A DNA stretch of 43,338 bases. Origin: Lachnospiraceae bacterium (GTDB taxonomy: Bacteria; Bacillota; Clostridia; Lachnospirales; Lachnospiraceae). Under the pieces are notes generated by a model. It was not told where the DNA came from and did no database searches. It saw only the letters and a list, made by a program, of their open reading frames with translations. Position 1 is the first letter of the stretch, and every line of letters starts with the position of its first letter. The DNA lies in NCBI GenBank assembly GCA_030526195.1, contig JAUNDG010000014.1:25499-68836 (forward strand), written 5' to 3'. Made by a program: the position numbers and the translations under genes. Of the stretch, positions 1-43,338 are shown one piece after another.

Positions 1-60
1 AAATATATTGCATGATATAGTATTGAATACGAGATAGCAAAGTGCTAGGAGGAATTAAAA

Positions 61-291
61 ATGACATTCGACAAAGTGAAATCTGTTATCGTTGACACTC
101 TGAACCTGGACGAAGAAGACATCACAATGGAAGCTTCCCTGATGGACGATCTGGAAATCGACTCTCTGGACGTTGTTGAGCTGATCATGGCTCTGGAAGA
201 AGAATTCGGCCTGAAGATCGCCAACGAAGAAGCTGCCGAACTGAAGACAGTCGGTGCCATCGTTGAATACATTGATGCTAAGCTTGCCTAA
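61..291 (+). CDS. acpP: Acyl carrier protein
   Basis: This 76-residue acidic protein carries growing acyl chains on a phosphopantetheine arm during cytoplasmic type II fatty-acid synthesis. The attachment motif is the DSLDVVEL segment, with Ser38 as the modified residue, followed by the usual acidic helix II (IMALEEEFG). The length is typical of the family. An excellent ribosome binding site, AGGAGG, lies about 8 bases before the ATG. It is the first complete gene of the fatty-acid operon here and is followed after 18 bases by accB. Only 60 bases of upstream sequence are visible, so the operon promoter and any gene before acpP cannot be judged. Identification is by motif and context and is secure. 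Confidence 0.97.
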   Translation: MTFDKVKSVIVDTLNLDEEDITMEASLMDDLEIDSLDVVELIMALEEEFGLKIANEEAAELKTVGAIVEYIDAKLA

Positions 292-309
292 TCAAATCAG
301 AGGTATTGT

Positions 310-843
310 ATGAATTGGGATTTAAAGACGGTGACGACCCTCATCGATCGTTTCGATAAGTCCTCACTGGTTGAACTGTCACTGGAAGACGAAGAAGGCT
401 GCATTTCCTTAAAGAAGAGCGATGCCTTCGTGCCGGCCACCCAGGCTGTGGTGACACCGGCCGCTGTGGCTCCCGCTGTGGCAATGCCCAGCGTTGTGGC
501 CCCGGCTCCGGCTGTTGTGGCTCCCGCCGCTCAGCCGACAGCACCGGAAACAGCCGCTTCCGAAAATGACGCATCATCCGCCGCTGCAGCTCCGGCTGTC
601 AACGGCACAGAAGTGAAGGCCCCCATGGCCGGTACCTTCTACAGAGCCGCTTCACCGCAGGATGCTCCCTACGTGGAAGTTGGCCAGAGCGTCAAGAAGG
701 GTGACACCATCGGTCTCATCGAGGCTATGAAGATTATGTCGGAGATTCCGGCTCCGGTCAGTGGCGTTGTACGCAAGATCCTGATCGAGAACGGCGAATT
801 TGCCGAGTTTGATGCCCCGATCATCATCATCGAAGAGGCATAA
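310..843 (+). CDS. accB: Biotin carboxyl carrier protein of acetyl-CoA carboxylase
   Basis: AccB carries the biotin that shuttles CO2 from biotin carboxylase (AccC) to the carboxyltransferase (AccD/AccA). The 177-residue protein has a short N-terminal region (1-40), a long Ala/Pro/Val linker (about 41-98), and a C-terminal biotinyl domain (about 100-177). The biotinylation motif EAMKIMSEI contains Lys141. The ATG follows an AGAGG ribosome binding site. The linker is longer and more alanine-rich than in many homologues, and its Glu-Asn-Asp stretch contains one copy of the GAAAATG word discussed in the findings. A 200-base gap containing a strong hairpin separates it from accC, which is unusual inside this otherwise tight operon. 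Confidence 0.96.
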   Translation: MNWDLKTVTTLIDRFDKSSLVELSLEDEEGCISLKKSDAFVPATQAVVTPAAVAPAVAMPSVVAPAPAVVAPAAQPTAPETAASENDASSAAAAPAVNGTEVKAPMAGTFYRAASPQDAPYVEVGQSVKKGDTIGLIEAMKIMSEIPAPVSGVVRKILIENGEFAEFDAPIIIIEEA

Positions 844-861
844 ACTCGCCTGCTTTACCGG

Positions 862-917
862 CCGCCCGTATGTGCCGCAAAGCCGGTCATCCGGCTGCTT
901 GCGCGCGCTACGGGCGG
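862..917. other. Large imperfect hairpin in the accB-accC spacer
   Basis: The outer arms CCGCCCGTA (862-870) and TACGGGCGG (909-917) are a perfect 9-base inverted repeat. They enclose further pairing (GCAA/TTGC) and an inner perfect stem AGCCGG-tcat-CCGGCT (881-896). No T-run follows, so it does not look like an intrinsic terminator. It may be an RNA processing or stabilising element that sets the ratio of AccB to AccC, but that role is inferred. Confidence 0.6.
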
Positions 918-1043
918 TTGTCAGCATTTATGAGACATTTTTGAGTGACGCATTTCATCAAACCGAAACGGGACCCGGCTGATGTGCTGCCGGCCCTCTG
1001 CGCGTCACATTTTTTACCGACAGTTCATGGAGAAATAAACCAT

Positions 1044-2429
1044 ATGTTTAAACGTATTCTCATTGCCAATCGCGGGGAAATCGCCATGCGCGTGCTGCGC
1101 TGCTGCCAGGAAATGGGTATCGAGGGCGTGGTGGCCTGCTCAACGGCCGACCGCGAATCCCTGCCGGCCCAGATGGCAGCCCAGAGTGTCTGCATCGGCC
1201 CGCCGCCGGCTGACAAGAGTTATTTAAATGAAAATGCCCTGCTGGAAGCCGCCAAGAGACTTCACTGCGACGCCATCCATCCGGGCTACGGCTTCCTTTC
1301 CGAAAATGCCGCCTTCGCCGAAAAATGCGAAGAGGCCGGCATCGTCTTCATCGGTCCGTCCGCGAACATCATCCGTCGCATGGGCGACAAGCAGACCGCC
1401 CGCAGCCTGATGCGTGAAAAAGGTGTGCCGGTGGTGCCGGGTTCCGCCGGTTTCCTGGACAGCGTGGAACATGCGCTGGCCGAAGCCGAAAAGGTGGGCT
1501 ATCCGGTGCTTCTGAAGGCCACTGCCGGTGGCGGAGGCCGCGGTATGCGCACCGCCTTCGATGCCTCCGAGGTTGAAAAAGCCTTCAGCGAGGCTCAGGC
1601 CGAAGCTCAGGCCGCTTTCGGAAATGGCGCTCTTTATCTCGAAAAGCTCATCCTGAACCCGCGCCACATCGAGGTGCAGATCCTGGGTGATAAGAAGGGG
1701 AACATCATTCAGCTGGGCGAACGCGACTGTTCACTGCAGCGCCGTAAGCAGAAAATGCTGGAGGAATCCCCCGCCAGCTGTCTTGATGATAAGACCCGCC
1801 AGGCCATTTTAAAAACGGCTGTGAAGGCCGCCAAGGCCGCCGGTTATTACAGCGCCGGTACCGTGGAATTTGTCCTGGATAAAGACAAGAATTTCTATTT
1901 CATTGAAATGAACACCCGTATTCAGGTGGAACATCCGGTAACGGAAATGGTAACCGGCGTCGACCTGGTGCGTGAGCAGATCCGTGTGGCGGCCGGCCTG
2001 AAGCTGTCCGTCAAGCAGAGCGATATCGTGATCAACGGTCACGCCATCGAATGCCGGATCAATGCCGAAGATCCCACCAACGGCTTCAGACCCTGCCCGG
2101 GCAAGATCAATTTCCTTCATTTCCCCGGCGGCAACGGTGTGCGGATCGACAGCGCCCTCTATGCCGGCGCTGAAATCTCACCCTTCTATGATTCCATGGT
2201 GGGTAAGGTGATCGTTCACGCCCCCAACCGGCTGGAAGCCCTGCGCCGCATGCGCCGCGCTCTGCTGGAAACTGTGATCGACGGCATTCCTGTGAATACT
2301 GATTTCTTATATCTCATCCTGTTCGATCCCGATTTCATCATGGGCAAGGTGGACGTGTCCTTCATGGATACCCACATGGACGCCCTGCTGAAATATCAGA
2401 AAGACAGTGAGAAAAAGGCTGATAAATAA
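1044..2429 (+). CDS. accC: Biotin carboxylase subunit of acetyl-CoA carboxylase
   Basis: AccC uses ATP and bicarbonate to carboxylate the biotin on AccB, the first half of the acetyl-CoA carboxylase reaction. The sequence starts with the canonical MFKRILIANRGEIAMRV. It contains the ATP-grasp glycine-rich loop (KATAGGGGRGMR) and the catalytic EMNTRIQVEHPVTE segment. At 461 residues it has the normal family length. The ATG at 1044 is chosen because the reading frame upstream (from 945) is not AccC-like, while a GGAG ribosome binding site sits about 12 bases before 1044. The next gene, accD::accA, starts 3 bases after the stop, so the two are surely co-transcribed. Confidence 0.97.
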   Translation: MFKRILIANRGEIAMRVLRCCQEMGIEGVVACSTADRESLPAQMAAQSVCIGPPPADKSYLNENALLEAAKRLHCDAIHPGYGFLSENAAFAEKCEEAGIVFIGPSANIIRRMGDKQTARSLMREKGVPVVPGSAGFLDSVEHALAEAEKVGYPVLLKATAGGGGRGMRTAFDASEVEKAFSEAQAEAQAAFGNGALYLEKLILNPRHIEVQILGDKKGNIIQLGERDCSLQRRKQKMLEESPASCLDDKTRQAILKTAVKAAKAAGYYSAGTVEFVLDKDKNFYFIEMNTRIQVEHPVTEMVTGVDLVREQIRVAAGLKLSVKQSDIVINGHAIECRINAEDPTNGFRPCPGKINFLHFPGGNGVRIDSALYAGAEISPFYDSMVGKVIVHAPNRLEALRRMRRALLETVIDGIPVNTDFLYLILFDPDFIMGKVDVSFMDTHMDALLKYQKDSEKKADK

Positions 2430-2432: not shown

Positions 2433-4283
2433 ATGACAAACGTATTTTTAAAGAAAAGACGGACGATCCTGTCCTATAAAAATCTGAGAGAAAGCCGCAC
2501 CGAGCGCATCGAAGCCGGCCGTCGGCTCAAACTCATTTTCGATGAAGGGACCTTCGTTCCGCTTTTTACGGAAATGAAAACCAAAGACCCGCTGCAGTTC
2601 CCGGGCTACGAGGACAAGCGGCGCGAGCTGGAAAATCGTTCCGGCGAAAATGATGCTCTGGTGGCAGGCGTTGGCCTTGTTGGCGGCCGTCGCGTCTGCG
2701 CCGCGGAGCTGGATCGTCAGATCCTGATGGGCAGTATGGGCACCGTTGTGGGCGAAAAGCTGGTGTGCCTCATTGAAATGGCCGGTCGGGAAAAGCTGCC
2801 CCTTGTGGTCTTCTCCGCCAGCGGCGGGGCCCGTATGCAGGAGGGCCTTTATTCCCTGATGCAGATGGCCAAGACCTCAGCGGCCGTGAGAAAATTCCGC
2901 CGGGAAGGTGGCCTTTTTATTTCCGTGCTGACCCATCCCACAACCGGTGGTGTCAGCGCCAGCTTCGCCTCTCTGGGCGATATTATTCTGGCTGAACCGG
3001 GCGCCCTCATCGGGTTCGCCGGTCCCCGGGTCATCGAGCAGACGATCCGGAAGAAACTGCCGGAAGGCTTCCAGAGAGCGGAATTCCAGATGGAACACGG
3101 CTTCGTGGACAAGATCGTGGATCGGAAGGATATGAAAAAGACCCTGATCCGCATCCTGCGCCTCCATGAGAAGCGGCCGTTAAACCGTCCGGTGGCTGCG
3201 AAGATGTCGGCCGTCACCGACACGATTTCAGACAATGCCGTGACGAGTACAACGGTTGGGGCTGATAAACTGACAACCGTATCGGAAACTGTTAATGCAA
3301 CAACCGACAAGACCGTGGCTGACGGTACGACAGACAACGGTTCAGCCGTTCCCGAAAATGGCGGTGCCGCCGACAAGCTGACAACAGCAACAGCCGACAC
3401 AACAATCGCCCGTCCGCTTCCGGCTTCCGGTATCCCGCCGAAGGATATTCCCCGCAGCGACTTAAGCGCTTACGAGCGCCTGAGCCTGGTCAGATCCGCA
3501 GACCGGCCGAAAGTGACCGACTACATCAGCGCCATTTTCGATGAATTTATGGAAATGTGCGGCGACCGTCTCGGGCGGGAGGATGCTTCCCTGCTTGGCG
3601 GCGTGGCCATGCTGGATGGCATGCCGGTGACGGTCATCGGTCATCGCAAGGGTAAGACCGCCAAGGAAAACCTGGCCTGCAACTTCGGTATGACCTCTCC
3701 CGAGGGCTACCGCAAGGCGCTGCGTCTCATGGAGCAGGCTGAGAAATTTGGCCGTCCGGTGATCACCTTCATCGATACCCCCGGTGCTTACCCGGGCATG
3801 GAAGCTGAGGAACACGGACAGAGCATCGCCATTGCCGAAAATCTGGCCCGCATGAGCGACCTCAAGGTGCCGATCATCGCCATCGTCACAGGCGAAGGCA
3901 ACAGCGGTGGCGCCCTGGCCATCGGTGTGGCGGATGAAGTCTGGATGCTGGAAAATGCCGTTTACGCCATTCTGTCCCCGGAGGGCTTCGCGTCCATTTT
4001 GTGGAAGGATGCTGCCAAAGCACCCAAGGCCTGCGAGATCATGAAGATCACCTCCCACGACCTTTTCGAACGCGGTCTCATTGACCGGATCGTGGCAGAG
4101 GGCCCCGGCGGGATTCAGAAAAATTTTGAAAATGACACAGCGCGCCTGCGTCACCTTCTGGTGAAAGCCGTCCGTTCTCTGGCGGCAAAGGATCCGGAGG
4201 AGCTGGCTGCGGAGCGTTATCTTAAATACAGAACCATCGAAGGTGACATGCGTCCCTTCGGAGCTGAAGAGGTGCAGCCGTGA
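2433..4283 (+). CDS. accDA: Fused acetyl-CoA carboxylase carboxyltransferase, beta and alpha subunits
   Basis: This single 616-residue frame joins the two carboxyltransferase subunits that transfer CO2 from carboxybiotin to acetyl-CoA to give malonyl-CoA. Residues 1-255 are AccD-like (FSASGGARMQEG, THPTTGGVSASFAS, GFAGPRVIEQT). Residues about 258-335 are a Thr/Ala/Asp-rich linker of low complexity. Residues about 340-616 are AccA-like (GDRL, VIGHRKG, FIDTPGAYPG, GEGNSGGALAIG). The N-terminus lacks the four-cysteine zinc ribbon typical of bacterial AccD: only scattered cysteines are present and no CxxC pair is visible. The ribosome binding site is weak, and the start lies 3 bases after the accC stop, so translational coupling is likely. 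The fusion keeps the catalytic cores intact; the linker probably spans the subunit interface. Confidence 0.93.
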   Translation: MTNVFLKKRRTILSYKNLRESRTERIEAGRRLKLIFDEGTFVPLFTEMKTKDPLQFPGYEDKRRELENRSGENDALVAGVGLVGGRRVCAAELDRQILMGSMGTVVGEKLVCLIEMAGREKLPLVVFSASGGARMQEGLYSLMQMAKTSAAVRKFRREGGLFISVLTHPTTGGVSASFASLGDIILAEPGALIGFAGPRVIEQTIRKKLPEGFQRAEFQMEHGFVDKIVDRKDMKKTLIRILRLHEKRPLNRPVAAKMSAVTDTISDNAVTSTTVGADKLTTVSETVNATTDKTVADGTTDNGSAVPENGGAADKLTTATADTTIARPLPASGIPPKDIPRSDLSAYERLSLVRSADRPKVTDYISAIFDEFMEMCGDRLGREDASLLGGVAMLDGMPVTVIGHRKGKTAKENLACNFGMTSPEGYRKALRLMEQAEKFGRPVITFIDTPGAYPGMEAEEHGQSIAIAENLARMSDLKVPIIAIVTGEGNSGGALAIGVADEVWMLENAVYAILSPEGFASILWKDAAKAPKACEIMKITSHDLFERGLIDRIVAEGPGGIQKNFENDTARLRHLLVKAVRSLAAKDPEELAAERYLKYRTIEGDMRPFGAEEVQP

Positions 4284-5385: not shown

Positions 5386-5546
5386 AAAACCATTTTTTGA
5401 CAGAAAATAAGTCACATTTGCATCGGAATCCCAATTGGCAAAAAAGATGCAAAAGATATGTCGACAAAACCATTTTCTAAAAAGAAAAGCGGTAAGATTT
5501 CCGAGAATATCATTTTCGAAAAGAAAAGTCAGCGCGAAAGCCACTG
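5386..5546. repeat. Three imperfect CATTTT...AAGAAAA repeats before fabK
   Basis: The 290-base fabH-fabK spacer contains no gene that I can support. It holds three related segments, beginning near 5390, 5470 and 5509. Each starts with (C/T)CATTTT and continues into an A/G-rich stretch containing GAAAA. The third reads TCATTTTCGAAAAGAAAAGT and closely matches the repeat units before fabZ. The spacer lacks a clear terminator hairpin, so read-through into fabK is likely. Confidence 0.55.
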
Positions 5547-5625
5547 TTTCAGTCTATGAGCAGCTGACAATTCTGGGCAGGCGGAAGCGATTGCGCATGT
5601 CCGCGTGAGAAAGAGAGGAATGAAG

Positions 5626-7538: not shown

Positions 7539-8285
7539 ATGAAGAAATTTTCGGGACAGACAGCCCTTGTCACAGGGGCTTCCCGCGGTATCGGCCGGGC
7601 CATCGCTCTGGCTCTGGCCGCTGAAGGCGCCAACGTGGTGATCAATTATGCCGGCCGTGCGGAGGCAGCGGAAGCCACCGCTGAAGAATGCCGCGCCCTC
7701 GGCGTCGAAGCCATCTGCGTGCAGGCCGACGTGTCTAAGGAAGAGGACTGGGCACGGATGACAGAAGAAGCCAAAGCTTTGAGCGGCCGCATCGACATTT
7801 TAGTGAACAATGCCGGCATCACCCGTGATGACCTGCTTTTCCGTATCAGTGAAGAAGATTTTGACGCCGTCGTGAAGACCAATCTTTACGGCTGCTTCCA
7901 TGGCCTTAAGTCTGTGTATCGTCTCATGATGAAGCAGAAATACGGCCGTATCATTAACATCAGTTCTGTGGTGGGCCTTCACGGCAATGCCGGTCAGGCC
8001 AACTATGCGGCAGCCAAGGCCGGGATCGTGGGTCTGACCAAGTCCATGGCCAAGGAACTGGCTTCCCGCGGCGTGACAGTGAACGCTGTGGCTCCGGGGT
8101 TTGTGGCCACCGATATGACAGATGCCATGCCGGAAGCCGCTAAGGAAGCCGCTCTTGCCGGCATCCCTATGAAGAGTCTGGGCAAGCCGGAGGATATCGC
8201 CGGTGCGGTTCTGTTCCTGGCAGATCCGGCCAGCCGTTACATCACAGGTCAGGTTTTAAGCGTTGACGGAGGTATGAGCATATGA
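7539..8285 (+). CDS. fabG: 3-oxoacyl-ACP reductase
   Basis: FabG is the NADPH-dependent short-chain dehydrogenase that reduces 3-ketoacyl-ACP. The nucleotide-binding TGASRGIGRAIA, the NNAGITRD motif, and the catalytic Ser-Tyr-Lys set (INISSVVG followed by NYAAAKAG) are intact, as is the C-terminal GQVLSVDGGMSI. The 248-residue length is exactly typical. A GGAGG-rich sequence at the end of fabD provides the ribosome binding site. The stop overlaps the fabF start by 4 bases (ATGA). Confidence 0.97.
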   Translation: MKKFSGQTALVTGASRGIGRAIALALAAEGANVVINYAGRAEAAEATAEECRALGVEAICVQADVSKEEDWARMTEEAKALSGRIDILVNNAGITRDDLLFRISEEDFDAVVKTNLYGCFHGLKSVYRLMMKQKYGRIINISSVVGLHGNAGQANYAAAKAGIVGLTKSMAKELASRGVTVNAVAPGFVATDMTDAMPEAAKEAALAGIPMKSLGKPEDIAGAVLFLADPASRYITGQVLSVDGGMSI

Positions 8286-9532: not shown

Positions 9533-9720
9533 CGCGGCCGGCGCGCCATTTTCGAAAGAAAGTGAAGCTCTGCGGCCAGTGCGATGATTTTAGAAAATGA
9601 GGTATCGCGGCCGGCGCGCCATTTTCGAAAGAAAGTGAAGTTTTGCAGCCGGTGCGGTACTTTGGGAAAATGAAGTCGCGCAGCCGATGAGCTATTTAAA
9701 AAAATGAGTTGTGGGCTGCG
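9533..9720. repeat. Tandem repeats of about 36 bases (73-base higher unit) before fabZ
   Basis: The fabF-fabZ spacer contains about five degenerate copies of a unit of about 36 bases. Each has a GC-rich head (GCGGCCGGCGCG) and an A-rich tail (CATTTTCGAAAGAAAGTGAAG or a variant with GAAAATGA). Copies 1 and 3 are nearly identical and lie 73 bases apart (9541 and 9614); copies 2 and 4 form the alternate half, and copy 5 is decayed. The heads and tails contain the GAAAATG/CATTTTC word four times. No open frame or terminator is apparent, so transcription may continue into fabZ. Confidence 0.8.
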
Positions 9721-9748
9721 CTGTATGAAATGATTGAGGAAGACGAGT

Positions 9749-10183
9749 ATGGTTCTGTCATCTAATGATATTGAGAAAATTCTGCCGCATCGTTATCCCT
9801 TCCTGTTGGTAGATCGGATCGATGAGCTGGAACCGGGCGTACGGGCCCGGGGTGTGAAGTGCATTTCTGCCAATGAAATGCAGTTCTGTGGTCATTTCCC
9901 GGGTATGCATGTCATGCCGGGTGTGCTGCTGATCGAGGCTCTGGCTCAGACCGGGGCTGTGGCCCTGCTTTCCGAAGAGGAAAACAAGGGGAAGGTTGTG
10001 CTGTTCGGGGGCATCAAAAATGCCCGTTTCAAAAAGCAGGTGGTGCCGGGTGACCGGGTCGAGCTGTTCTGCGAGATCCTGGAACGCCGTGGTCCGGTTG
10101 GCATCGGCAAGGCTGAGGCCAGAGTTGACGGCAAACTTGCGGTAACGGCGGAACTGACATTTGCGATTGCTGATAAGACATGA
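9749..10183 (+). CDS. fabZ: 3-hydroxyacyl-ACP dehydratase
   Basis: FabZ removes water from 3-hydroxyacyl-ACP to give the enoyl-ACP used by FabK. The hot-dog fold signature is clear: [14 protein letters not shown] near the N-terminus, then [12 protein letters not shown] with the catalytic His, and EALAQTGAV with the catalytic Glu. I place the start at ATG 9749 (144 residues), preceded by GAGGA about 9 bases upstream, rather than at the in-frame TTG 9734. It is separated from fabF by the repeat array. The next gene is the MarR-type regulator. Confidence 0.95.
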
Positions 10184-20538: not shown

Positions 20539-21852
20539 ATGAGTGTAAAGGTAGAACGTTTAGAGCATAACATGGCTAAACTGACAGTCGAAGTACCGGC
20601 AGCTGACTTTGTCGCCGCTATCAAGACTGCTTACAACAAGTCAAAGAACAGATTCAACATCCCGGGCTTCCGTAAGGGCAAAGCTCCGCAGAATCTGGTA
20701 GAAAAGATGTATGGCAAGGAAGTCTTCTATGATGATGCTGCCAACGAAGTGCTGCAGAACTCCTATCCGGAAGCTGCTAAAGAATCCGGTCTGGATATCG
20801 TTTCTGCTCCGCAGGTTGAACTGGTTCAGATCGAAAAGGGTCAGGACTTCATCTATGCCGTGACAGTAGCTGTTAAGCCGGAAGTTAAGCTTGGCGCTTA
20901 CAAGGGCCTTGAAATTCCGAAGTTCGAAGCTACAGTGTCCGAAGCTGATATCGATGCTGCTCTGGTCAGAGAACAGGAAAAGAATGCCCGCGTTGTCACA
21001 GTTGAAGATCGTGCTGTTGAAAGCGGCGATACAGTCGTTCTTGATTATGCCGGTACAGTTGACGGCGTAGCCTTCGACGGTGGTACAGCAACAGATTATG
21101 AACTGGTTATCGGCTCAGGCGCTTTCATCCCGGGCTTCGAAGATCAGCTGATCGGTGTTAACACAGAAGAAGAAAAAGACATTGTCGTCACATTCCCGGA
21201 AGATTACCATGCTGATCTGGCCGGTAAGGAAGCTGTCTTCAAATGCACAGTTCATAAGATCACAAAGAAAGAAATGCCGGAACTGAACGATGAATTCGCT
21301 CAGGAGGTTTCTGAATATGACACTCTGGCTGAGTACAGAGAAGAAGTTAAGGGCCACCTTCAGGAAGCAAAAGACAGACAGGTCGATGCTCAGAAGAAGG
21401 AAGCTGCTGTCAGCAAGCTGGTAGAGCTGTCTGAAATGGATATCCCGGAAGCTATGATCGATACACGCGTTGACCAGATGTTCAACGACCAGGCTAACCG
21501 TATGCAGAGCCAGGGCTTCCCGATGGATATGTACCTTCAGTACATGGGCACAACAGCTGCCGAAATGAAGAAGAACATGAGACAGTCCGCTGAAGCTCAG
21601 ATCAAGGGCGACCTGGTTCTGGAAGCTGTTGCCGCTGCTGAAAACTTCGAAATCACAGATGATGCTATCAATGCCGAAATGACAAAGATGGCTGAAGCTT
21701 ACAAGATCGATCCGCAGGTTGTCATCGATGCTATGACAGACTATGAAAAGGATCAGATGAGAAAAGATCTGTCCACACGCGAAGCGCTGAAGTTCCTGAT
21801 CGACAACGCTGTGGAAGTTGAAAAGAAAGACGAGGCTGAAAAAGCTGAATAA
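20539..21852 (+). CDS. tig: Trigger factor, ribosome-associated chaperone and prolyl isomerase
   Basis: Trigger factor binds the ribosome exit tunnel and helps nascent chains fold. The ribosome-binding signature appears as FRKGKAPQNLVEKMYG. A central FKBP-type domain (about 150-245; GDTVVLDYAGTVDG, FIPGFEDQLIG) and the C-terminal helical arms follow, for a usual total of 437 residues. AAAAGGAG precedes the ATG. Codon choice (GCT, GTT, ACA, GAA) is visibly more biased than in neighbours, as expected of an abundant protein. It heads the classic tig-clpP-clpX-lon-engB order of Bacillota. Confidence 0.97.
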   Translation: MSVKVERLEHNMAKLTVEVPAADFVAAIKTAYNKSKNRFNIPGFRKGKAPQNLVEKMYGKEVFYDDAANEVLQNSYPEAAKESGLDIVSAPQVELVQIEKGQDFIYAVTVAVKPEVKLGAYKGLEIPKFEATVSEADIDAALVREQEKNARVVTVEDRAVESGDTVVLDYAGTVDGVAFDGGTATDYELVIGSGAFIPGFEDQLIGVNTEEEKDIVVTFPEDYHADLAGKEAVFKCTVHKITKKEMPELNDEFAQEVSEYDTLAEYREEVKGHLQEAKDRQVDAQKKEAAVSKLVELSEMDIPEAMIDTRVDQMFNDQANRMQSQGFPMDMYLQYMGTTAAEMKKNMRQSAEAQIKGDLVLEAVAAAENFEITDDAINAEMTKMAEAYKIDPQVVIDAMTDYEKDQMRKDLSTREALKFLIDNAVEVEKKDEAEKAE

Positions 21853-26790: not shown

Positions 26791-28658
26791 ATATTATCAA
26801 AGCCTTTAAAATGGGGCATAATTTCCTGAAATACTCTGAGGATGACACCAAGGAGCCCGAGGTTGTCACGGCCGTGGCCGATGTGAATCTCGAGATCGAA
26901 GCCGGCGAGTTTGTGGCCATTTTAGGTCACAACGGGTCCGGTAAATCCACCCTGGCCAAGCACCTCAATGCCCTTTTGCTGCCCACCAGCGGGACCGTCT
27001 GGATCGACGGCGCCGATACAAAGGAAGAGCCTGAACTGTGGCGGATTCGCCAGAAGGCCGGTATGGTTTTCCAAAATCCGGACAACCAGATCATCGGCAC
27101 CGTGGTGGAAGAGGATGTGGGCTTCGGCCCGGAAAACATCGGGATTCCCACAAAGGACATCTGGACCCGTGTGGAGGATGCCCTCACCAAGGTGGGGATG
27201 CTCGACCGCCGCAAGAGTTCGCCGAACCGTCTGTCCGGCGGGCAGAAGCAGCGCGTTGCCATCGCCGGTATCGTGGCGATGCATCCGCAGTGCATCATTC
27301 TCGATGAGCCCACCGCCATGCTGGATCCCAACGGTCGGCGTGAGGTGCTCAATGTTATTCGGGAATTAAATGAAAAAGAAAATGTCACGGTCATCCTGAT
27401 CACCCACTACATGGAGGAGGTGGTCTGGGCCGACCGCGTTTATGTGATGGACGACAGCCGTGTGGTCATGGAGGGCACGCCCCGGGAGATCTTCTCCAAG
27501 GTGGAAACTCTGAAGGCCCTGCACCTCGATGTGCCGGATGAAACGGAACTGGCCTGGCACATTCGCCGCGCCGGCTATGAACTGCCCCATGTGATGACCC
27601 GCGCAGAAGCGGTGGATGCCATTGTGAAACTGGCTGCCGCGGAAGGTTGTGCCATCGACGAGCCCATTTTCGAAAATGAGGTTGCTGCAGAATCCGTCTC
27701 TGTACCTGAAAATGCTTCCGAAGCGACATCTGCGTCTGAACAGGAGCTGACAACTGAGTCCGCCACTGCATCCGGGCCTGACAACGACGCCGCACAGGCT
27801 CTTCTGACTCTTGAAAACATCGGCTACACCTACGGGGCCGGTACGGTCTACGAACGGAAGGCCCTGGAGGATATCAACATTGCCATCGGCAGCGGTGAGT
27901 TTATTGGCATCATCGGTCACACCGGTTCCGGTAAATCCACACTGGTACAGCTTTTGAACGGCCTCATCAGACCGACAGAAGGCCGCGTGCTGTGGCAGGG
28001 ACGGGACATTTTCGAAAAAGATTTCCCGCTGAGAGAGCACCGCACCAAGGTGGGTCTGGTGTTCCAGTATCCGGAGCATCAGCTTTTCGAAGCGGATATC
28101 CTGACAGATGTCTGCTTTGGTCCGAAGAATCAGGGACTTGACGAGGAAACCTGCAAGGCCCGGGCCCGCAAAGCTCTGGAGCAGGTGGGCATTCCGGAAC
28201 GTAAATACACGGATTCGCCCTTTGATGTGTCCGGCGGTCAGAAACGACGCGTGGCCATCGCCGGCGTTCTGGCCATGGAACCTGAGGTGCTGATTCTCGA
28301 CGAACCCACCGCGGGTCTTGATCCGCTGGGCCGGGATGAAATCCTTGACTGCATCAAATCGCTGCAGAAGGAGCGGGGCATCACTGTTGTGCTGGTTACT
28401 CACAGCATGGAAGATGTGGCTACTTATGCCGATCGTCTCATTGTTATGGACAACGGCCGTCTGCAGTATGACGATACACCGCGTCGGGTGTTTACCCACT
28501 ATCGTGAGCTGGAGGCCATGGGTCTGGCGGCTCCGGAAATGACTTATCTCATGCATGATCTTCAGAAAGCCGGTCTGCCGGTCAGCCTTGAGGCGATGAC
28601 GGTGAAGGAAGCGGCGGATGAGATCGTGCGTATGTTTGAAACAAAGGGGAAGGAGTAA
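26787..28658 (+). CDS. ecfA1A2: Fused ECF transporter ATPases EcfA1-EcfA2
   Basis: This 623-residue protein carries both ATPases of the group II energy-coupling factor transporter, which powers vitamin uptake by several S components such as RibU. The first ABC domain (about 1-290) has Walker A GHNGSGKST (47-55), signature RLSGGQKQRVAIAG and Walker B CIILDEPTAML. The second (about 337-623) has GHTGSGKST, DVSGGQKRRVAIAG and VLILDEPTAGLD. Each normally comes from a separate gene of about 280 codons. The linker, residues 291-336, is rich in Glu, Ala, Ser and Thr, and its DNA holds a perfect CATTTTCGAAAATG palindrome at 27665-27678. Both nucleotide sites appear competent. Confidence 0.94.
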   Translation: MNIIKAFKMGHNFLKYSEDDTKEPEVVTAVADVNLEIEAGEFVAILGHNGSGKSTLAKHLNALLLPTSGTVWIDGADTKEEPELWRIRQKAGMVFQNPDNQIIGTVVEEDVGFGPENIGIPTKDIWTRVEDALTKVGMLDRRKSSPNRLSGGQKQRVAIAGIVAMHPQCIILDEPTAMLDPNGRREVLNVIRELNEKENVTVILITHYMEEVVWADRVYVMDDSRVVMEGTPREIFSKVETLKALHLDVPDETELAWHIRRAGYELPHVMTRAEAVDAIVKLAAAEGCAIDEPIFENEVAAESVSVPENASEATSASEQELTTESATASGPDNDAAQALLTLENIGYTYGAGTVYERKALEDINIAIGSGEFIGIIGHTGSGKSTLVQLLNGLIRPTEGRVLWQGRDIFEKDFPLREHRTKVGLVFQYPEHQLFEADILTDVCFGPKNQGLDEETCKARARKALEQVGIPERKYTDSPFDVSGGQKRRVAIAGVLAMEPEVLILDEPTAGLDPLGRDEILDCIKSLQKERGITVVLVTHSMEDVATYADRLIVMDNGRLQYDDTPRRVFTHYRELEAMGLAAPEMTYLMHDLQKAGLPVSLEAMTVKEAADEIVRMFETKGKE

Positions 28659-29471: not shown

Positions 29472-29481
29472 GGACTGTGAT

Positions 29482-35043: not shown

Positions 35044-35083
35044 CGAGACGTTGATTTGTAAAGTTTAGGGAGGAAAGCAATAG

Positions 35084-36352
35084 ATGTTTTGTCAAAAATG
35101 CGGAGAGCAACTGCTTGAAGGCGATGTGTTCTGTCCAAAGTGCGGGTGGAAAGCAGAGTTTTTTGAAGAATCAGATGCAGAAGGCATCGGCAAGAAAAAA
35201 GAAAAGGCCGGGAAAAAGAGCGGTTCGAAAAAAACTAAATGGGTAATTGGTTTGGTTGGTGTCGTAATCGTTGTGGCTATTGTGGCTTTTTGTATAACAC
35301 TGCTGCCGAAAATGACCAGGAGCAACGGCGGGGAGGTTATAGAGGCATTTAAATCAGGTGATGACTCGGTTGTTCTTTCACTGGAAAATGGCAAGAGTAT
35401 CACGGTTGAAGAAGCTTCACGAGCGACTATGACCGCAGATGGTCAGCACCTGATTGTTTTGTATACCGATAAATCGCTCTATATCATGGATAAAAATCAA
35501 AAAGAGCGGGTGTGTGTCGCTGATAAATGTAAATCTTATGCGTATGTTCGCAATGATGGCTTCTATTATGAAGACTCAAAAGGAAAGGTTTATCGTGTTA
35601 AATACAAGGATGGTTCAACGGTTCTTCTTGAAGATTTGATCTACTTAACCGTTGCGCCGAATACGACAACAGCCCTTTATAGAAATAGCAGACATCAGAT
35701 GATGCAGCTAAATCACACAAGCGATGTTCCGGAAAAGATTTCAGCGTACAAGTTGCCAAAGTATATAATGGATTCGCTGGAGAAAGAGGATCCACTAGTT
35801 GGTGAAGAACCAGAGGCCGATCAGATTACTGATGAAGGTGATATGGCACTGTGGGTCGAGGGCACAGATGATGGACAGGCCTCTGTATGGTGTTATGAAG
35901 ATGGAATAAAATCGAAAATCCTTGAGAACGATGATGACGATATAGATTTGTATCATTCAAAAGATCAAGGGACCTGTGTTATTGAAACGGAAGGTAAGAT
36001 TTGGATTAAACGACGTGGTGAAGAACCGATTTCTGTTGGTAAGCCATCTGGCTCTGTGTATAACATTTGCACGGCAGAGGGGTATATAGAAGATGTTAAT
36101 GTAATGAATAAAGATTACATTTATTTTGAAGCAGATGCTTCCGAAAAAGAGAATTTTTATGTCATTACTCCGGAAGGAGACAGAGAACGACTTTTGGCGA
36201 ATGTATTCGTTTTAAGCATTGGAAATGGTCGTATTGTCTGGAAAGATGAGGATGACAGTCTCTATCATGGCAAATTGGAGGGTGCAAAGATTTCAGATGA
36301 GACTTGTCCGGTATATATGATTGGGGAGATGCAGATGATGGAGGATTTCTAA
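35084..36352 (+). CDS. Zinc-ribbon membrane protein with a propeller-like domain, probably truncated
   Basis: This 422-residue protein has an N-terminal zinc ribbon (Cys3, Cys6, Cys17, Cys20), a basic stretch, one membrane segment (about 49-73) and an exterior domain of repeated beta-strand patterns, suggestive of a propeller. It parallels the protein at 37283 closely up to KISDET (about residue 407), after which the paralogue continues for another 150 residues but this one ends with 15 unrelated residues. The break coincides with the start of an orphan C-terminal piece in another frame. GGGAGG lies upstream of the start. Its codon use is distinctly more AT-rich than that of the paralogue. 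Function is unknown. Confidence 0.75.
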   Translation: MFCQKCGEQLLEGDVFCPKCGWKAEFFEESDAEGIGKKKEKAGKKSGSKKTKWVIGLVGVVIVVAIVAFCITLLPKMTRSNGGEVIEAFKSGDDSVVLSLENGKSITVEEASRATMTADGQHLIVLYTDKSLYIMDKNQKERVCVADKCKSYAYVRNDGFYYEDSKGKVYRVKYKDGSTVLLEDLIYLTVAPNTTTALYRNSRHQMMQLNHTSDVPEKISAYKLPKYIMDSLEKEDPLVGEEPEADQITDEGDMALWVEGTDDGQASVWCYEDGIKSKILENDDDDIDLYHSKDQGTCVIETEGKIWIKRRGEEPISVGKPSGSVYNICTAEGYIEDVNVMNKDYIYFEADASEKENFYVITPEGDRERLLANVFVLSIGNGRIVWKDEDDSLYHGKLEGAKISDETCPVYMIGEMQMMEDF

Positions 36353-36912
36353 CCGTTTTTGATGTCACCAACGGAGATGAACTGTATTTTGAGTTTAGTT
36401 ACACAAGATATTTTGGTTTCGGCGGTGTGGCCAAGTATAACGGAGATGTCTTTACTTTTAATGAATCTGGAAATAAGGGTACCATTCGACGTGATAGTGC
36501 TGGTGATGTGATTTTTACATTAACGGAATCTGAATATCAAGACGGACTTGGCGTTTATACGATGACTTATGAAAGGTCATTGGAGGAATGGAATGATATA
36601 ATCAGCGAGTATCGTTATTTGGCGGATTATGAATCCTATCCTAATGCGTTCTTTAATCAATTCCTTTGTGACTACTGGGGCGATTATAATGCCGGTTACA
36701 TGGAATGGCTAGGCGATACAAATGAGATTTTTACTTTTCCGGGACAGACTTACACACGCTGTACGATTTATAAATTGAATCTAACAGATGGGACGACGGC
36801 ATATTTTGTCGTTGGCCAAGAACAAAATAATACTTTCCAAGTGTATGAAATTTATCCCGGTAAGCAATTGAAATGGCTGTGGAATGTGCCGAGCCACTTG
36901 GTAAAAAAGTAG
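36304..36912 (+). pseudogene. Orphan C-terminal remnant of a surface lipoprotein or zinc-ribbon protein
   Basis: This open frame of 202 codons begins only with TTG, overlaps the end of the previous gene in a different frame, and has a stop just upstream (TGA at 36298). The encoded sequence (SGIYDWGDADDGGFLTVFDV, then FTFNESGNKGTI, and ending LWNVPSHLVKK) looks like a real folded C-terminal domain of an extracellular protein. It has no start, ribosome binding site or signal of its own. I interpret it as the 3' end of another zinc-ribbon-type gene whose 5' part was replaced when a deletion or recombination joined it to the paralogue. A frameshift is possible but less likely, because the paralogue's C-terminus is unrelated. 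Confidence 0.6.
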
Positions 36913-37004
36913 ATATGTGTATATGGCCGAAACTGTGTGTAATAATACATCCGATATTACTTTGAACTGTTTCGGAAGAGGGTAATCTCCAAAGGACTAC
37001 TTAG

Positions 37005-37031
37005 GGGCTGCCGCATTGCGGCAGCCCTTTT
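37005..37031 (+). terminator. Intrinsic terminator after the remnant
   Basis: GGGCTGCCGC (37005-37014) and GCGGCAGCCC (37018-37027) form a perfect 10-base stem with a 3-base loop followed by TTTT. Confidence 0.9.
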
Positions 37032-37046
37032 CCTGTGCCCTTTTCT

Positions 37047-37089
37047 GACAACCACACATAAATTTCTGTCAATATTATGTGTGGTTGTC
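37047..37089. repeat. Perfect 15-base inverted repeat
   Basis: GACAACCACACATAA (37047-37061) and TTATGTGTGGTTGTC (37075-37089) are perfect inverted copies with a 13-base loop. There is no T-run. It could be an operator, a small folded RNA, or the residue of an insertion. The remainder of the 36913-37282 gap holds the preceding terminator and a second inverted repeat, CCAAGCGA...TCGCTTGG (about 37207-37238), and no gene. Confidence 0.7.
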
Positions 37090-37282
37090 GGCAGTTGTGG
37101 CATCAGAGATTATCAGAAGGGGATAAATACACCATTTGTCATGTGAAGATTACGGGTGTATCATGAAAAAAGAGGATACTGTGAGTAAATTATAAGAAAC
37201 AAATCCCAAGCGACATGCATTTGTGTCTATCGCTTGGCAAATGGTCTTTTTCGATAATGTCTTGAACAGGGAGGTTGCAAGG

Positions 37283-38956
37283 ATGTTTTGCAAACAGTGT
37301 GGTGAAAAACTGCTTGAGGGCGATGTTTTCTGCCCTGAGTGCGGATGGAAGATCGAGGCTGTGTCACCGACATCAATGCTGAACAGTGAGCCTGTGTCAC
37401 CGACACCGTCCCCGATGATGGGCAGCGTATCTGAGGCGCCGACCGATAAGAAAAAAGGCAAGTTCCCGAAGTGGGCAAGCGGCCTGATCGCCGTGGTGGT
37501 CGTGGCGGCAGCGGCAGCGGCCGTTGTCATTTTCGGCCTGCCGATGCTTAAGGGAAACAGCGTAAGCTCTGAGAGCACCATCAAGACAAGCTATGCCGCA
37601 GAGGATGACACAGTCGTCATTTCCGTAGGCGATGGCAGCAGCATCACCATCGGCGATGCCAAGCAGGCCACTCTGACAGCCGACGGCAAACATATGGTGA
37701 TCCTGTATACAGATGATGCCCTGTACATGATGGACCGCGAGCAGAAGAATCCGGTTTGCCTGGAAGAAAAGTGCCTCAACTACGACTGCGTGCGTGATGA
37801 GGGCTTCTTCTATCAGGATAAGGAGGGCAACATCTACCGCGCGAAATTCGAGGATGCTTCCGTGGTGAAGCTCAAAGATGCCGAAAATGTCTCAGTCGCC
37901 GCGCACACAACGACAGCCATTTTCAAAAACAGCCGCGATCAGCTGGTGAAGCTTAACGCCGATTCTGAAGAAATGGAAAAGATCGGCACCTGCAAAAAAA
38001 TGCAGCAGATGGACATCACCGATCAGGGCGACATGGCTCTGTGGGTGGATGAATCCGATGGCGTGACGGTTTATGCCTATGAAGATGACACCAAGACGAA
38101 GGTGGCAGAACTGTCGGACGATGAGGATGTGGACCTGCTGCTGTCAAAGGATCAGGGGACTTGCCTTGTGGTGGCGAAGGAAAAACTGTGGATCAAACGG
38201 GTCGGCGCAGAAGCTGTGCCGGTCAATATGCCCTCCAGCGGTTCCATCGATGATGTTTATACAGCCCAGGGTGAGATTGAATCCGTCGATGTGGCCAAGA
38301 ATGATTATTTCTACGTTGTGGCCGATGGCTCATCCAACAGCAACCTGTACGCTGTCGGCATGGACGGCGAACGTGAACGTGTTCTGGCCAATGTTTACGT
38401 GAGCAACATCGCCAACGGCCGGATCGTCTGGATGGATGAAGAGGAGAACCTCTACCACGGGAAACTCAACGGCACCACCATTTCCGATGAGACACGAATT
38501 GCCAGCGAAGGCATGAGCATCAGATGTTCGAAAGATATGAAGACCGTGCTCTTCTTCAAAAATGTCAGCGATGACGAGGGCACACTGTGCTGCTGGCGCG
38601 AAAATAAATCCGATATTGAAAAGATCGCCAAGGACATCAATATCTATACACGGATCACCATCGGCGAGTCCGACAATGCGGTTTACTATCTGGCGGAAAC
38701 AGAAAGCATTTCTAATGGTTCGATTTTTGATGTTTACGGCACACTGATGCGCTGGAAGTCAGGCGCTGACAAGGCTGAACGTCTCACAAGCGATATCATG
38801 AGCACGAATTTCGGCCGTCAGATGGGCAAGACTTTGACATTCCTGAGATATCAGGGCAGCGATAAGAAAAACGATGATATCTGCTATGCGGATCTGGTGG
38901 CTGTTGACGGGAAAAATGTCAGCACCATTTCCACAGACCTGAAGATCAATATGTAA
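37283..38956 (+). CDS. Zinc-ribbon membrane protein with a propeller-like exterior domain
   Basis: This 557-residue protein shares its architecture with the gene at 35084: zinc ribbon (Cys3, Cys6, Cys17, Cys20), a Ser/Pro linker, a membrane segment at about 64-88, and then a long domain with regularly spaced strand-turn units (AKQATLTADGKHMVILYTDD, EGFFYQDKEGNIYRAKFED, NGRIVWMDEEENLYHGKLNG). These spacings suggest a beta-propeller such as TolB/WD40-like folds. The in-frame ATG at 37223 is upstream, but GGGAGG at about 37270 supports 37283. Codon use is like the core genes, unlike the paralogue. The ribbon faces the cytoplasm and the propeller probably faces the outside, a possible sensor arrangement, though no function is known. 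Confidence 0.82.
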   Translation: MFCKQCGEKLLEGDVFCPECGWKIEAVSPTSMLNSEPVSPTPSPMMGSVSEAPTDKKKGKFPKWASGLIAVVVVAAAAAAVVIFGLPMLKGNSVSSESTIKTSYAAEDDTVVISVGDGSSITIGDAKQATLTADGKHMVILYTDDALYMMDREQKNPVCLEEKCLNYDCVRDEGFFYQDKEGNIYRAKFEDASVVKLKDAENVSVAAHTTTAIFKNSRDQLVKLNADSEEMEKIGTCKKMQQMDITDQGDMALWVDESDGVTVYAYEDDTKTKVAELSDDEDVDLLLSKDQGTCLVVAKEKLWIKRVGAEAVPVNMPSSGSIDDVYTAQGEIESVDVAKNDYFYVVADGSSNSNLYAVGMDGERERVLANVYVSNIANGRIVWMDEEENLYHGKLNGTTISDETRIASEGMSIRCSKDMKTVLFFKNVSDDEGTLCCWRENKSDIEKIAKDINIYTRITIGESDNAVYYLAETESISNGSIFDVYGTLMRWKSGADKAERLTSDIMSTNFGRQMGKTLTFLRYQGSDKKNDDICYADLVAVDGKNVSTISTDLKINM

Positions 38957-39026
38957 GGTCGCATCCTGGCGGTGGGATGGATGCCGCTGATATGACAAAT
39001 GCTCGATTATGATGAGGTGAAAGAAA

Positions 39027-40253
39027 ATGGCAAAATTCTGCAGATTTTGCGGATCCGCGATTCGGGAGGGTGTCAAGTTCTGCCCGAAGTGCGGTAAGAA
39101 CCTGATAGAGGCGCAGGCCGGAAAACGGCCCGGCGCTCAGTCCGGCGCTCAGCCGGATGCACCGGCTGCTACACAGCCGGGATCACAGACGGGGGCAACA
39201 ACACCCCTGCGGCAGAATGCGCTGGGCTCTGATAAACCGACCGATCCTTCAGTGCAACAGACAAATGCATTCAACCCGCAGGGAAATGCGAACACGTTCA
39301 GAAAAGAACCGGATTTGGCGCAGGCGCCTTATCCGCAGCCGCCGAAAACTAAAAACAAAAATGGTCTCCTGATTGCCCTTGCGGTCATCCTGGCATTACT
39401 GGCCGTTGTCGCAACGGTGATGGTTGTGCTGGATCCTTTCGGCTTCAAAACACCGCCGTCTCCGACACCGGCACCAGTGCCGGCGCCCCGGGATCCGGAT
39501 GACGATGAGGAAGAAGATGCCTCAGACGATGACGGTACCATCGACTTGTTTGAAGACATTCACGTTATCGTGACCGGTGTCCCCGGTCAGGCCATCATCA
39601 ATGAGATTTATGGTGAATATGAGGGTATTGGTTATACCTGCGTGCCGCTTAATGCGAAGCTTGGCGATACGGTGTCCATTACCGCGTATTGCACGGATTT
39701 CGATGAGGATGACGTGGTGGCCTATTGCCGCGAGAATTTCGGCGCCGAGCCCGAGGCCGTGACGATTAACTACACCATTGATGAACTGTCTCCCTGTCCG
39801 GAGACGGTGAAGGATATTCCGGATGAGACCATTCAGGAAATGGTCAGTTACGCCGAAGCGTATATGGCGAATAAAGCCGCCACCTGGCCGCCCAATGAAG
39901 CGCTGCTTGCTTATGATTATGTGGGCTGCATTTACCTGAAGGGCCGTCAGGATGTGGTGGTATCCCACACCAACCTTGTGGATCTTATTTTTAAGACCAC
40001 GGTGATCGCCGATGGTATCGAGAAGACCTTCTACCGCGTGGTGGAATTTGTCAATCTCGTGTATGACGGCGATGACCTGCGCTACGAGGTGGGCGATGCT
40101 TACGAGACCATCACCCGCAACGGCGGTGAACAGATCCAGGTGGGCACCGCGTCCTATTACGGTTTCCTGAGCCTTAAGGAAATCAAGAATGAGCGTCTGA
40201 CCGGCCTGGCCAACCACTGGGACGGCGAGTCCTCAATCAATCTGGATGCATGA
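39027..40253 (+). CDS. Zinc-ribbon membrane protein of unknown function
   Basis: This 408-residue protein starts with a zinc ribbon (Cys5, Cys8, Cys19, Cys22). A long Ala/Gln/Pro-rich disordered segment (about 30-110), a membrane helix (about 113-137), and an acidic Pro/Asp/Glu linker (about 145-175) follow. The exterior domain (about 175-408) has strands such as HVIVTGVPGQAIINEIYGEY and VVSHTNLVDLIFKTTVIADG, which I do not recognise. It has no sequence similarity by eye to the propeller domains of its neighbours, although the anchor plan is the same. GATGAGGTGAAAG provides the ribosome binding site. It lies 70 bases after the previous gene. Confidence 0.8.
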   Translation: MAKFCRFCGSAIREGVKFCPKCGKNLIEAQAGKRPGAQSGAQPDAPAATQPGSQTGATTPLRQNALGSDKPTDPSVQQTNAFNPQGNANTFRKEPDLAQAPYPQPPKTKNKNGLLIALAVILALLAVVATVMVVLDPFGFKTPPSPTPAPVPAPRDPDDDEEEDASDDDGTIDLFEDIHVIVTGVPGQAIINEIYGEYEGIGYTCVPLNAKLGDTVSITAYCTDFDEDDVVAYCRENFGAEPEAVTINYTIDELSPCPETVKDIPDETIQEMVSYAEAYMANKAATWPPNEALLAYDYVGCIYLKGRQDVVVSHTNLVDLIFKTTVIADGIEKTFYRVVEFVNLVYDGDDLRYEVGDAYETITRNGGEQIQVGTASYYGFLSLKEIKNERLTGLANHWDGESSINLDA

Positions 40254-41478: not shown

Positions 41479-41524
41479 AACGGATGTCGCCCTGCAAGCG
41501 ACCATTTTCGAAAGAGAATCTTCC

Positions 41525-41572
41525 ATAATAATGACTGTCAGGAACGAAGTCCTGCACAGTCATTATTTTTTT
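41525..41572 (+). terminator. Terminator after the macro-domain gene
   Basis: AATAATGACTGT (41527-41538) pairs with ACAGTCATTATT (41556-41567), extended by an inner CAGGA/TCCTG stem, and ends in a T-run. Confidence 0.9.
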
Positions 41573-41641
41573 ACGAAAATGGTGTGGCCTAAGCCGATAG
41601 AGCCCGGCTTGGCCCGTGATAGAAAGAGAGGAGATAGCATT

Positions 41642-42298: not shown

Positions 42299-42364
42299 TT
42301 GGAATGTGTCAAAAAAACCGCGGAAAATCAACGAAAAATCGGCAAAAAAGTGCAGGGCGGACTA

Positions 42365-42393
42365 TTGACAGCCATCGGTATGTTTTCTATAAT
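42365..42393 (+). promoter_or_regulatory. Strong promoter of rplM-rpsI
   Basis: Perfect TTGACA (42365-42370) and TATAAT (42388-42393) boxes are 17 bases apart, the consensus spacing. The leader of about 95 bases before rplM could hold a ribosomal-protein autoregulatory element, but I see no clear consensus. Confidence 0.9.
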
Positions 42394-42493
42394 GTTTAAG
42401 CATGTGTGTGACGATGTCTACCATAGCCCCGGTAACATCCGATCCAAAGCATATATTGAACAGTTAACTCTTATTTTTGGGAGGTTATCATCC

Positions 42494-42925
42494 ATGAAAG
42501 ATACATTTGTGGCTAACCCGGACAAGATCGAAAGAAAATGGTATCTTGTCGATGCTGATGGCGTAACACTTGGCCGTCTGGCTTCAGAAGTCGCTAAGAT
42601 TCTTCGCGGTAAGAACAAACCGGAATACACACCGTTTGTTGACACAGGCGACTATGTTGTTATCGTAAACGCAGAAAAAGTTAAGATCTCCGGCAAGAAG
42701 CTGGATCAGAAGATCTACTTCAGACATTCCGATTATGTTGGCGGTGCTAAATATACATCTCTCCGTGAAATGCTCGCCACAAAGCCGGAATATGTTGTTG
42801 AACATGCTGTTCGCGGCATGGTTCCGAAGGGTGCTCTTGGCGACAAGATGTACAAGAAACTCCATGTTTACGCTGGTCCGGAACATGAGCAGGCCGCTCA
42901 GAAGCCGGAAATGCTGACAATCTGA
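42494..42925 (+). CDS. rplM: Large-subunit ribosomal protein uL13
   Basis: This is L13, an early-assembling protein of the 50S subunit. The typical N-terminus ([20 protein letters not shown]), the [18 protein letters not shown] helix, [20 protein letters not shown], and the [21 protein letters not shown] motif are all present at the normal 143 residues. The ATG at 42494 is preceded by GGGAGG; the longer frame upstream is not conserved. In most Bacillota it directly follows truA, but here 11.6 kb separate them, and it has its own promoter. Confidence 0.97.
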
Positions 42926-42941
42926 TAGGAGGAGTTGAAAA

Positions 42942-43331
42942 GTGGCAGAAAAATTTTATGGTACCGGCAGAAGAAAAAAATCTATCGCTAGAGTCTATCT
43001 GACACCGGGCACAGGCAAAATCACAATCAATAAGAAAGACATCGACGTTTATTTCTCAATGGAAACACTGAAGATGATCGTTCGTGCTCCGTTCGCTGTT
43101 ACTGAAACAGAAGGCAAGTATGATGTTACTGTTACAGTTCGTGGCGGCGGTATGACAGGCCAGGCTGGCGCTATCCGCCACGGCCTTGCACGTGCTATCG
43201 CTAAGATGGATCCGGAACTTCGTCCGCTTGTTAAGAAGGCCGGCTATCTGACACGTGATCCGAGAATGAAAGAACGTAAGAAATACGGTCTCAAAGCAGC
43301 CCGTCGCGCTCCCCAGTTCAGCAAGCGTTAA
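42942..43331 (+). CDS. rpsI: Small-subunit ribosomal protein uS9
   Basis: This is S9, whose C-terminal tail reaches the P-site tRNA. The [21 protein letters not shown] start, [19 protein letters not shown], and the basic C-terminus [10 protein letters not shown] are canonical. It has 129 residues. It begins with GTG at 42942, 16 bases after rplM, with an ideal AGGAGG upstream. The window ends 7 bases past its stop, so no terminator can be seen. Confidence 0.97.
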
Positions 43332-43338
43332 TCGACTG

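Follow-up and report, generated by a model that had tools for sequence, protein, structure and literature searches.

Across a 43,338-nucleotide stretch of contig JAUNDG010000014.1 from a Lachnospiraceae bacterium (hereafter the window), and in the rest of that genome, the 7-base word GAAAATG and its complement CATTTTC occur far in excess of what protein sequence and codon use predict. The word is real, specific and maintained, in both orientations. Rather than a fixed 7-mer, it is best seen as a degenerate site built on the core AAATG, which this genome and some of its relatives carry thousands of times. Here, roughly, AAATG is preceded by A or G and this in turn by G, with a single further base between that G and a T-rich tract; the site is found in both orientations, in genes and in spacers. 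Our analysis suggests, tentatively, that the best reading of this site is a tag resembling the DNA uptake sequences (DUS) and uptake signal sequences (USS) of other bacteria.

Exact counting of the window gave 69 copies, 45 as GAAAATG and 24 as CATTTTC on the + strand. An earlier note on this DNA had the CATTTTC figure right and undercounted GAAAATG (about 42) and the total (about 65). Sixty of the 69 copies lie inside 38 called genes. As a null model, synonymous codons were shuffled within each gene, preserving the protein (and with it all dipeptides) and the per-gene codon counts. Across 400 shuffles the window genes held 18.2 ± 3.5 copies, with a maximum of 30 (z 11.9). The chance figure of about four given earlier was therefore too low; the codon-aware expectation in the coding part is about 18 and the excess about 3.3-fold. 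Under the same shuffles the reversed control GTAAAAG occurred once in these genes with 2.4 expected, and the GGAAATG form was found 40 times against 15.0. A maximum-order Markov model of the window alone returned a z of only 3.0 (69 vs 48), because such a model includes the sub-words of GAAAATG itself. The GC content of the window was measured as 52.3%, not the 54% or so first stated, and the 45:24 split between orientations follows from gene direction, as 38,310 of the 38,625 called gene bases are on the + strand.

In the whole genome (2.54 Mb in 43 contigs, placed in Lachnospiraceae by the best matches of its trigger factor) the word occurs 3,510 times, 1,785 and 1,725 on the two contig strands, and the reversed word 211 times. 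The codon test was applied to a 404 kb sample comprising the window and 20 further stretches (about 3 kb of it N), later enlarged to 541 kb, or about one fifth of the genome. In the 309 called genes of the 404 kb sample, GAAAATG ranked first of all 7-mers (477 vs 139.2 expected, z 34.7), followed by GGAAATG (305 vs 90.1); with improved gene calling (316 genes, approximately 0.4 Mb) these counts became 485 vs 143 and 308 vs 95. The GAAAATG excess was seen in every codon phase and in both orientations, and in the genes of the enlarged sample it held on the coding strand (394 vs 136) as well as antisense (233 vs 46). Taken together as GRAAATG, where R is A or G, the two leading forms numbered 1,041 in 439 sampled genes against 317 in shuffles (3.29-fold), with an excess of 2.5 to 3.6-fold according to position along genes and of 3.1 to 3.8-fold across five fifths of codon typicality (353 genes). 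The presence of copies in spacers as well as genes, first remarked in the window, extends to the 404 kb sample, where GAAAATG is equally dense in coding (1.43 per kb) and noncoding DNA (1.48 per kb). Noncoding DNA of the 541 kb sample held 120 copies with 12.6 expected from base composition alone, a background that poly-A words likewise surpass (AAAAAAG, 81 vs 12.3). A codon- and dipeptide-aware model thus fails to reproduce the count in either the window or the sample, and the excess is not confined to the window.

Maintenance at the DNA level was assessed from sites at which six bases of the word are present and the seventh is a synonymous third base. Eleven positions offered at least 15 cases, and at ten of them the completing base was preferred, whether it was A, C, G or T. 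Completing T was used 218 times and C 10 times (114:114 expected), completing A 218:18 (135:101 expected) at one position and 104:25 (50:80 expected) at another, and completing G in 92 of 120 cases (51 expected); antisense, completing C was used in 159 of 186 cases (81 expected) and 159:12 (104:67 expected). The sole exception was antisense position 6, which showed no preference (11 vs 12.2 expected), because the alternative base there yields GGAAATG. The statement that Glu-Asn before a G-starting codon is almost always GAA AAT was borne out, with 264 AAT and 16 AAC, against 69 AAT and 115 AAC when GAA-Asn does not precede G and 2,984 AAT and 3,030 AAC for Asn overall; likewise, ATT was favored before TTC in CATTTTC (159 of 182 vs 54 expected, at antisense position 4). 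Codon use and protein sequence are ruled out as the cause by the shuffles and the completing-base preferences, and a one-way mutation bias such as deamination is ruled out by the latter. The shuffles, the completing bases, the Asn codons and the anagrams described below together lend good support to the proposal that what is maintained is the DNA word and not the protein.

The shape of the site was defined in the same own-genome sample. With codon control, AAATG is the leading 5-mer (1,530 vs 734). Among the 21 one-base neighbors of GAAAATG, those altered at positions 3 to 7 occurred in genes at 0.46 to 1.28 times the expected number, and AAAAATG, GGAAATG and GTAAATG retained a 2.1 to 3.4-fold excess there; in noncoding DNA GTAAATG was not in excess (5 vs 9.9). 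The 105 anagrams of GAAAATG stood at 1.16 of expectation overall and at 1.01 when free of AAATG; AT content is therefore not the cause, and an effect of AT-rich patches is ruled out. The T-rich stretch noticed upstream of the word was also confirmed: T is favored at positions -5 to -2, in genes under codon control and in spacers, C is favored at -1 in genes only, and a weaker preference for T appears at +11 and, in spacers, also at +9. At least three T at -5 to -2 preceded 165 of 1,040 words and 19 of 307 in shuffles, and the long form, T tract plus core, reached an 8.6-fold excess, compared with 3.4-fold for the core. Head-to-head pairs of the form CATTTYC-GRAAATG (Y, C or T) occurred 17 times with no gap, compared with 0 to 5 times for any single gap length from 1 to 7; inverted pairs of known DUS and USS are used as terminators, a role that these pairs may or may not share.

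The 69 copies in the window are listed here by first base and orientation, followed by four local features.
Sites 1 to 14: 562+, 1230+, 1302+, 1751+, 2534-, 2646+, 3354+, 3533-, 3951+, 4128+, 4724+, 5245+, 5471-, 5511-
Sites 15 to 28: 5881+, 6652-, 7008+, 7268-, 7355+, 8367+, 9547-, 9593+, 9620-, 9666+, 10970+, 12470+, 12968-, 13144-
Sites 29 to 42: 13406-, 14269+, 15862+, 15977+, 17082+, 17473+, 17562-, 18903-, 19378+, 19810+, 19840-, 23839-, 24106+, 24276-
Sites 43 to 56: 24757+, 25346+, 26572+, 27378+, 27665-, 27672+, 27708+, 28007-, 29223+, 29892+, 30272-, 30418+, 30451+, 30643-
Sites 57 to 69: 33151+, 34083+, 35308+, 35384+, 37528-, 37883+, 37918-, 39023+, 40779-, 41503-, 41575+, 41996+, 42534+
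9547..9672, both strands: an extragenic example, with four copies whose orientation alternates, lying between fabF (called gene 8282-9517) and called gene 9734-10183
5471..5517, - strand: two copies in the spacer from the end of a called gene at 5335 to the next start at 5605
27665..27678, both strands: CATTTTC and GAAAATG head to head with no gap, a perfect 14-base palindrome inside gene 26787-28658
20539..21852, + strand: trigger-factor gene, in which no GRAAATG occurs (shuffles predict 0.8 and the genome-wide enrichment 2.8)

The mixed orientation described for the window was confirmed by the even genome-wide split, by the excess over shuffles in both orientations and by the successive-site pairs of the sample, whose four orientation classes numbered 138, 140, 142 and 147. 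Known DUS and USS occur in both orientations. Replication strand was judged by proxy, with gene direction taken as the mark of the leading strand. In spacers between codirectional genes the two orientations stood at 45:36 (p 0.37). Across contigs, words fell 344:243 on the majority-gene strand, and the orientation of the words was correlated with contig GC skew (Spearman 0.62, p 0.004); because the spacers stand at 45:36, we read this contig-level polarity as a codon effect of the gene strand. GRAAATG occurs about once per 0.41 kb, and 103 windows of 5 kb had a mean of 11.2 sites, a variance of 19.1 and a lowest count of 4, a mild over-dispersion. Even spacing was looked for in the own-genome sample and none was found.

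Among relatives the word is patchy. The ratio of GAAAATG to the reversed word was calculated by hand and is a crude control, since genome G150 scores 3.4 with no excess over shuffling. The ratio is 16.6 here and at least 8 in 8 of the 41 other genomes of the group treated as the genus, a broad group in which Lon is 51-66% identical (closer copies) and ClpX 65-79% (full-length best matches). No other genome reached 8 in the family sample (149 others, maximum 7.7) or in the class sample (195 others, maximum 5.5). Codon-controlled AAATG ratios were obtained for 26 genomes, 18 of them through a single 20 kb stretch and one (G089) from another genus; they were highest in G170 (2.93), G171 (2.73) and G155 (2.68), stood at 2.11 in the genome studied here, and were lowest in G164 (1.10), G154 (1.09) and G150 (0.93). 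In a pool of 74 named loci, each 9 kb or longer and most of them from Lachnospiraceae, AAATG numbered 3,361 against 3,250 expected, with two of the 74 reaching a ratio of at least 1.5 and a best z of 3.6. On a ClpX tree (30 rows, built by a quick method, with several weak forks) the word-rich genomes are scattered and do not form one clade. They also use different dialects: the genome studied here has G(A/G)AAATG after a T-rich tract, and G170, G171 and G155 have GGAAAATG(A/C)A, sharing the AAATG core and preferring G at -3/-2, A or C at +1 and A at +2. The top 5-mer of word-poor relatives is in many cases CGGAA/TTCCG or CCGGA/TCCGG, as in G150 (CGGAA, 584 vs 354), which may reflect a codon-pair habit or another word.

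Conservation of the site was examined in two pairs of relatives, neither including the genome of the window: G170/G174 (88.9% identity over 54.8 kb of alignment) and G171/G155 (80.8% over 41.2 kb), each compared in two directions that are not independent. Without codon control, AAATG ranked 72nd of 479 and 65th of 461 5-mers in conservation. When third bases within AAATGMA (M, A or C) or GRAAATG were compared with those of the same codons elsewhere, 192 of 234, 163 of 187, 118 of 148 and 116 of 148 were kept, against 165.5, 116.7, 77.0 and 88.1 expected. The corresponding odds (1.91, 4.58, 3.75 and 2.39) exceeded those of all nine control words each time, by a narrow lead over the best control word in two comparisons (1.69 and 2.23). 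AAATG alone gave odds of 1.53, 3.39, 2.30 and 1.76 and was not the highest in two of the four.

Of the known kinds of dispersed word, DUS and USS match this one best in density, in core-plus-dialect structure and in having an AT-rich shoulder. They number hundreds to thousands of copies, with a constant short core and dialects in relatives, as described in parts of PMC12616744 and PMC7811141, and the AT-rich flanking tracts of USS (PMC12616744, in part) have a counterpart here in the T-rich tract. The differences are another phylum and another sequence, and here a function that we infer from the sequence. In the relevant part of PMC12616744, Neisseriaceae (DUS) and Pasteurellaceae (USS) are the only families named as discriminating in this manner, and our searches of an open-licence library, which leaves out subscription papers, found no paper whose title or abstract opening describes such a word in Lachnospiraceae or elsewhere in Bacillota. 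The genome encodes possible parts of a competence machine, namely ComEC (an 871-residue frame with Competence, DUF4131 and Lactamase_B domains), DprA (searched for in this genome alone), and a locus with two T2SSF matches (one under the curated cut-off), one T2SSE match and an A24 peptidase gene, which from these profile matches we interpret as Tad-type. Tad genes are cited in part of PMC8513845 as required for transformation of Micrococcus luteus and as linked with DNA uptake in Liberibacter crescens. If the site is an uptake tag, a surface or membrane DNA-binding part of this machine would prefer fragments that bear it; each time homologous recombination joined a match on such a fragment with a chromosomal near-match, the chromosome would gain a copy of the site. 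The word would then accumulate genome-wide wherever codons permit, and a change of receptor would let the site drift into dialects. It is conceivable, though we put this forward with greater reserve than the tag itself, that the AAATG-core dialects constitute a third independent uptake-sequence system and the first in Bacillota, read by a Tad-pilus/ComEC machine rather than a type IVa pilus.

Several observations weigh against an uptake tag. The AAATG core is shorter than known DUS and USS. ComEC is encoded in 38 of the 42 genomes of the group, including G150, G164, G160 and G179, which have little or no excess, and word-poor G150 also has a Tad-like T2SSE match; no PilB-type ATPase was seen in the genome studied here, as judged by profile coverage. 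Codon-atypical genes show nearly the GRAAATG excess of typical ones (3.11 vs 3.26-3.78), and two of three integrase neighborhoods are not depleted in GRAAATG (ratios 3.58 and 4.04). Spacing is close to random and nearly exponential (coefficient of variation 1.14-1.15), which carries little weight, as USS themselves are described as unevenly spread (PMC7811141, in part). The uptake option raised in the earlier note is plausible and leads among those considered, with the occurrence of ComEC in word-poor relatives counting against it. Competence genes were not found to separate word-rich from word-poor genomes in the ComEC and T2SSE searches, although word-poor G154 gave no ComEC match, and word depletion is not general at integrase regions. 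An uptake tag should be scarcer in recently acquired DNA, and the third integrase neighborhood is in line with this, with 10 GRAAATG against 6.8 in shuffles (ratio 1.47, compared with 3.29 for all 439 genes); this region, at 61-72 kb of contig C7, has few words and a lower GC content (0.46-0.48) and is possibly a recent island.

Words like the cyanobacterial highly iterated palindrome HIP1, GCGATCGC, are a further known kind that the earlier note did not name. On this unlikely but substantial alternative, the site would be hyper-abundant because it is made and kept through DNA methylation or methylation-coupled mismatch repair, as proposed for HIP1, and exchange of methyltransferases would account for the differences between species. 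HIP1 and the alternative HIPs are likewise hyper-abundant short words of unsettled role that are low, absent or replaced in some species (PMC4390886, in part), and the AAATG word is patchy among relatives. A second word of the genome, CACCGGC/GCCGGTG, is enriched less strongly and about equally on the two strands of genes (1.97- and 1.96-fold), and 4.4-fold in spacers; it resembles the alternative HIP cACCGGCa given in part of PMC4390886. However, HIPs are GC-rich palindromes that match methyltransferase sites, whereas AAATG is AT-rich and non-palindromic, with the palindromic arrangement a minority (the 17 cases above), and the soft preferences extending several bases to each side are not those of a methylase site, which should be sharp.

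The sharp core with its T-rich shoulder and the 17 gapless palindromes would also suit a dimeric DNA-binding protein, and conservation between relatives fits such a site. We therefore considered, as a doubtful alternative, that the word is bound by an abundant protein that organizes or segregates the chromosome, with many sites each under weak selection. Over-dispersion in 5 kb windows is only mild, which speaks against this, and we know of no bacterial protein of such kind with thousands of sites kept at the codon level.

A recombination hotspot of the Chi type, read by AddAB, seems improbable. Chi words differ between bacteria, AddB is encoded in this genome (a full-length match of 828 bits, below the curated cut-off), and E. 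coli Chi, used as a yardstick by applying the same shuffle test to 250 kb of that genome, is likewise a short dispersed word with a similar codon-corrected excess (69 vs 27.1), seen on the coding strand (56 vs 23.0) as well as antisense (13 vs 4.1). Polarity by gene strand does not separate the word from Chi: the raw 56:13 of E. coli is explained by codons (23.0:4.1), codon-corrected E. coli Chi is not polar in this test either, and evidence on polarity comes from the spacers alone. Known Chi sites, however, are G-rich, and AddB was found in all eight genomes tested, word-rich and word-poor alike. The absolute excess by strand is +33 to +9 for E. coli Chi and +258 to +187 for GAAAATG, and the 7-mers of Chi rank 5th and 26th in E. 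coli, whereas GAAAATG ranks first in the sample here. One GRAAATG per 0.41 kb or so is denser than a hotspot should need and much denser than Chi, and the near-even spacers oppose a strong preference for the leading strand, provided that this strand can be told from gene direction. The Chi option of the earlier note is thus weakened by density and spacer orientation, yet retained.

A neutral outcome of codon-pair habits, local AT-rich patches or context-dependent mutation bias is similarly remote. Shuffling leaves ordinary E. coli words with up to about a twofold excess (GCTGGCG, 257 vs 114), several word-poor relatives are led by the 5-mer CGGAA, and the noncoding test, in which poly-A words exceed expectation too, uses base composition only. 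Against such an outcome stand the excess in all codon phases and both orientations, the preference for all four kinds of completing base, the composition-matched anagrams at 1.0, the conserved synonymous bases within words, and the lack of a comparable AAATG excess in the 74 pooled loci. The segregation words KOPS (FtsK-orienting polar sequences) and SRS (SpoIIIE recognition sequences) are also short, dispersed and over-represented, but their strong polarity with respect to replication is not seen here, where both orientations occur and spacers are near-even by the gene-direction proxy.

If the word is an uptake tag, self-recognizing DNA uptake would extend to the large family Lachnospiraceae; otherwise the word points to another process shaping thousands of genomic sites, as unsettled as HIP1. 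In either case, setting word-rich against word-poor relatives is a natural way to look for the responsible protein.

The genome also contains a family of intergenic repeats, which starts with TCTGTCCA and continues about GGGGCC-TGAAAGCCCGCAGGTGGA; CTGTCCA numbers 47 against 8.4 expected in a 79 kb noncoding sample, and TCTGTCCA at positions 21768 and 35130 of the window marks candidate members. Three called genes of the window join domains in one frame: AccD and AccA domains of acetyl-CoA carboxylase at 2433-4283 (616 residues), two ATPase domains of energy-coupling factor (ECF) transporters at 26787-28658 (623 residues), and tRNA pseudouridine synthase and DNA alkylation repair domains at 29452-30897 (481 residues). 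At 33010-40253, a CWB2 cell-wall-binding protein is followed by three zinc-ribbon proteins, two of them with weak DUF5050 matches.

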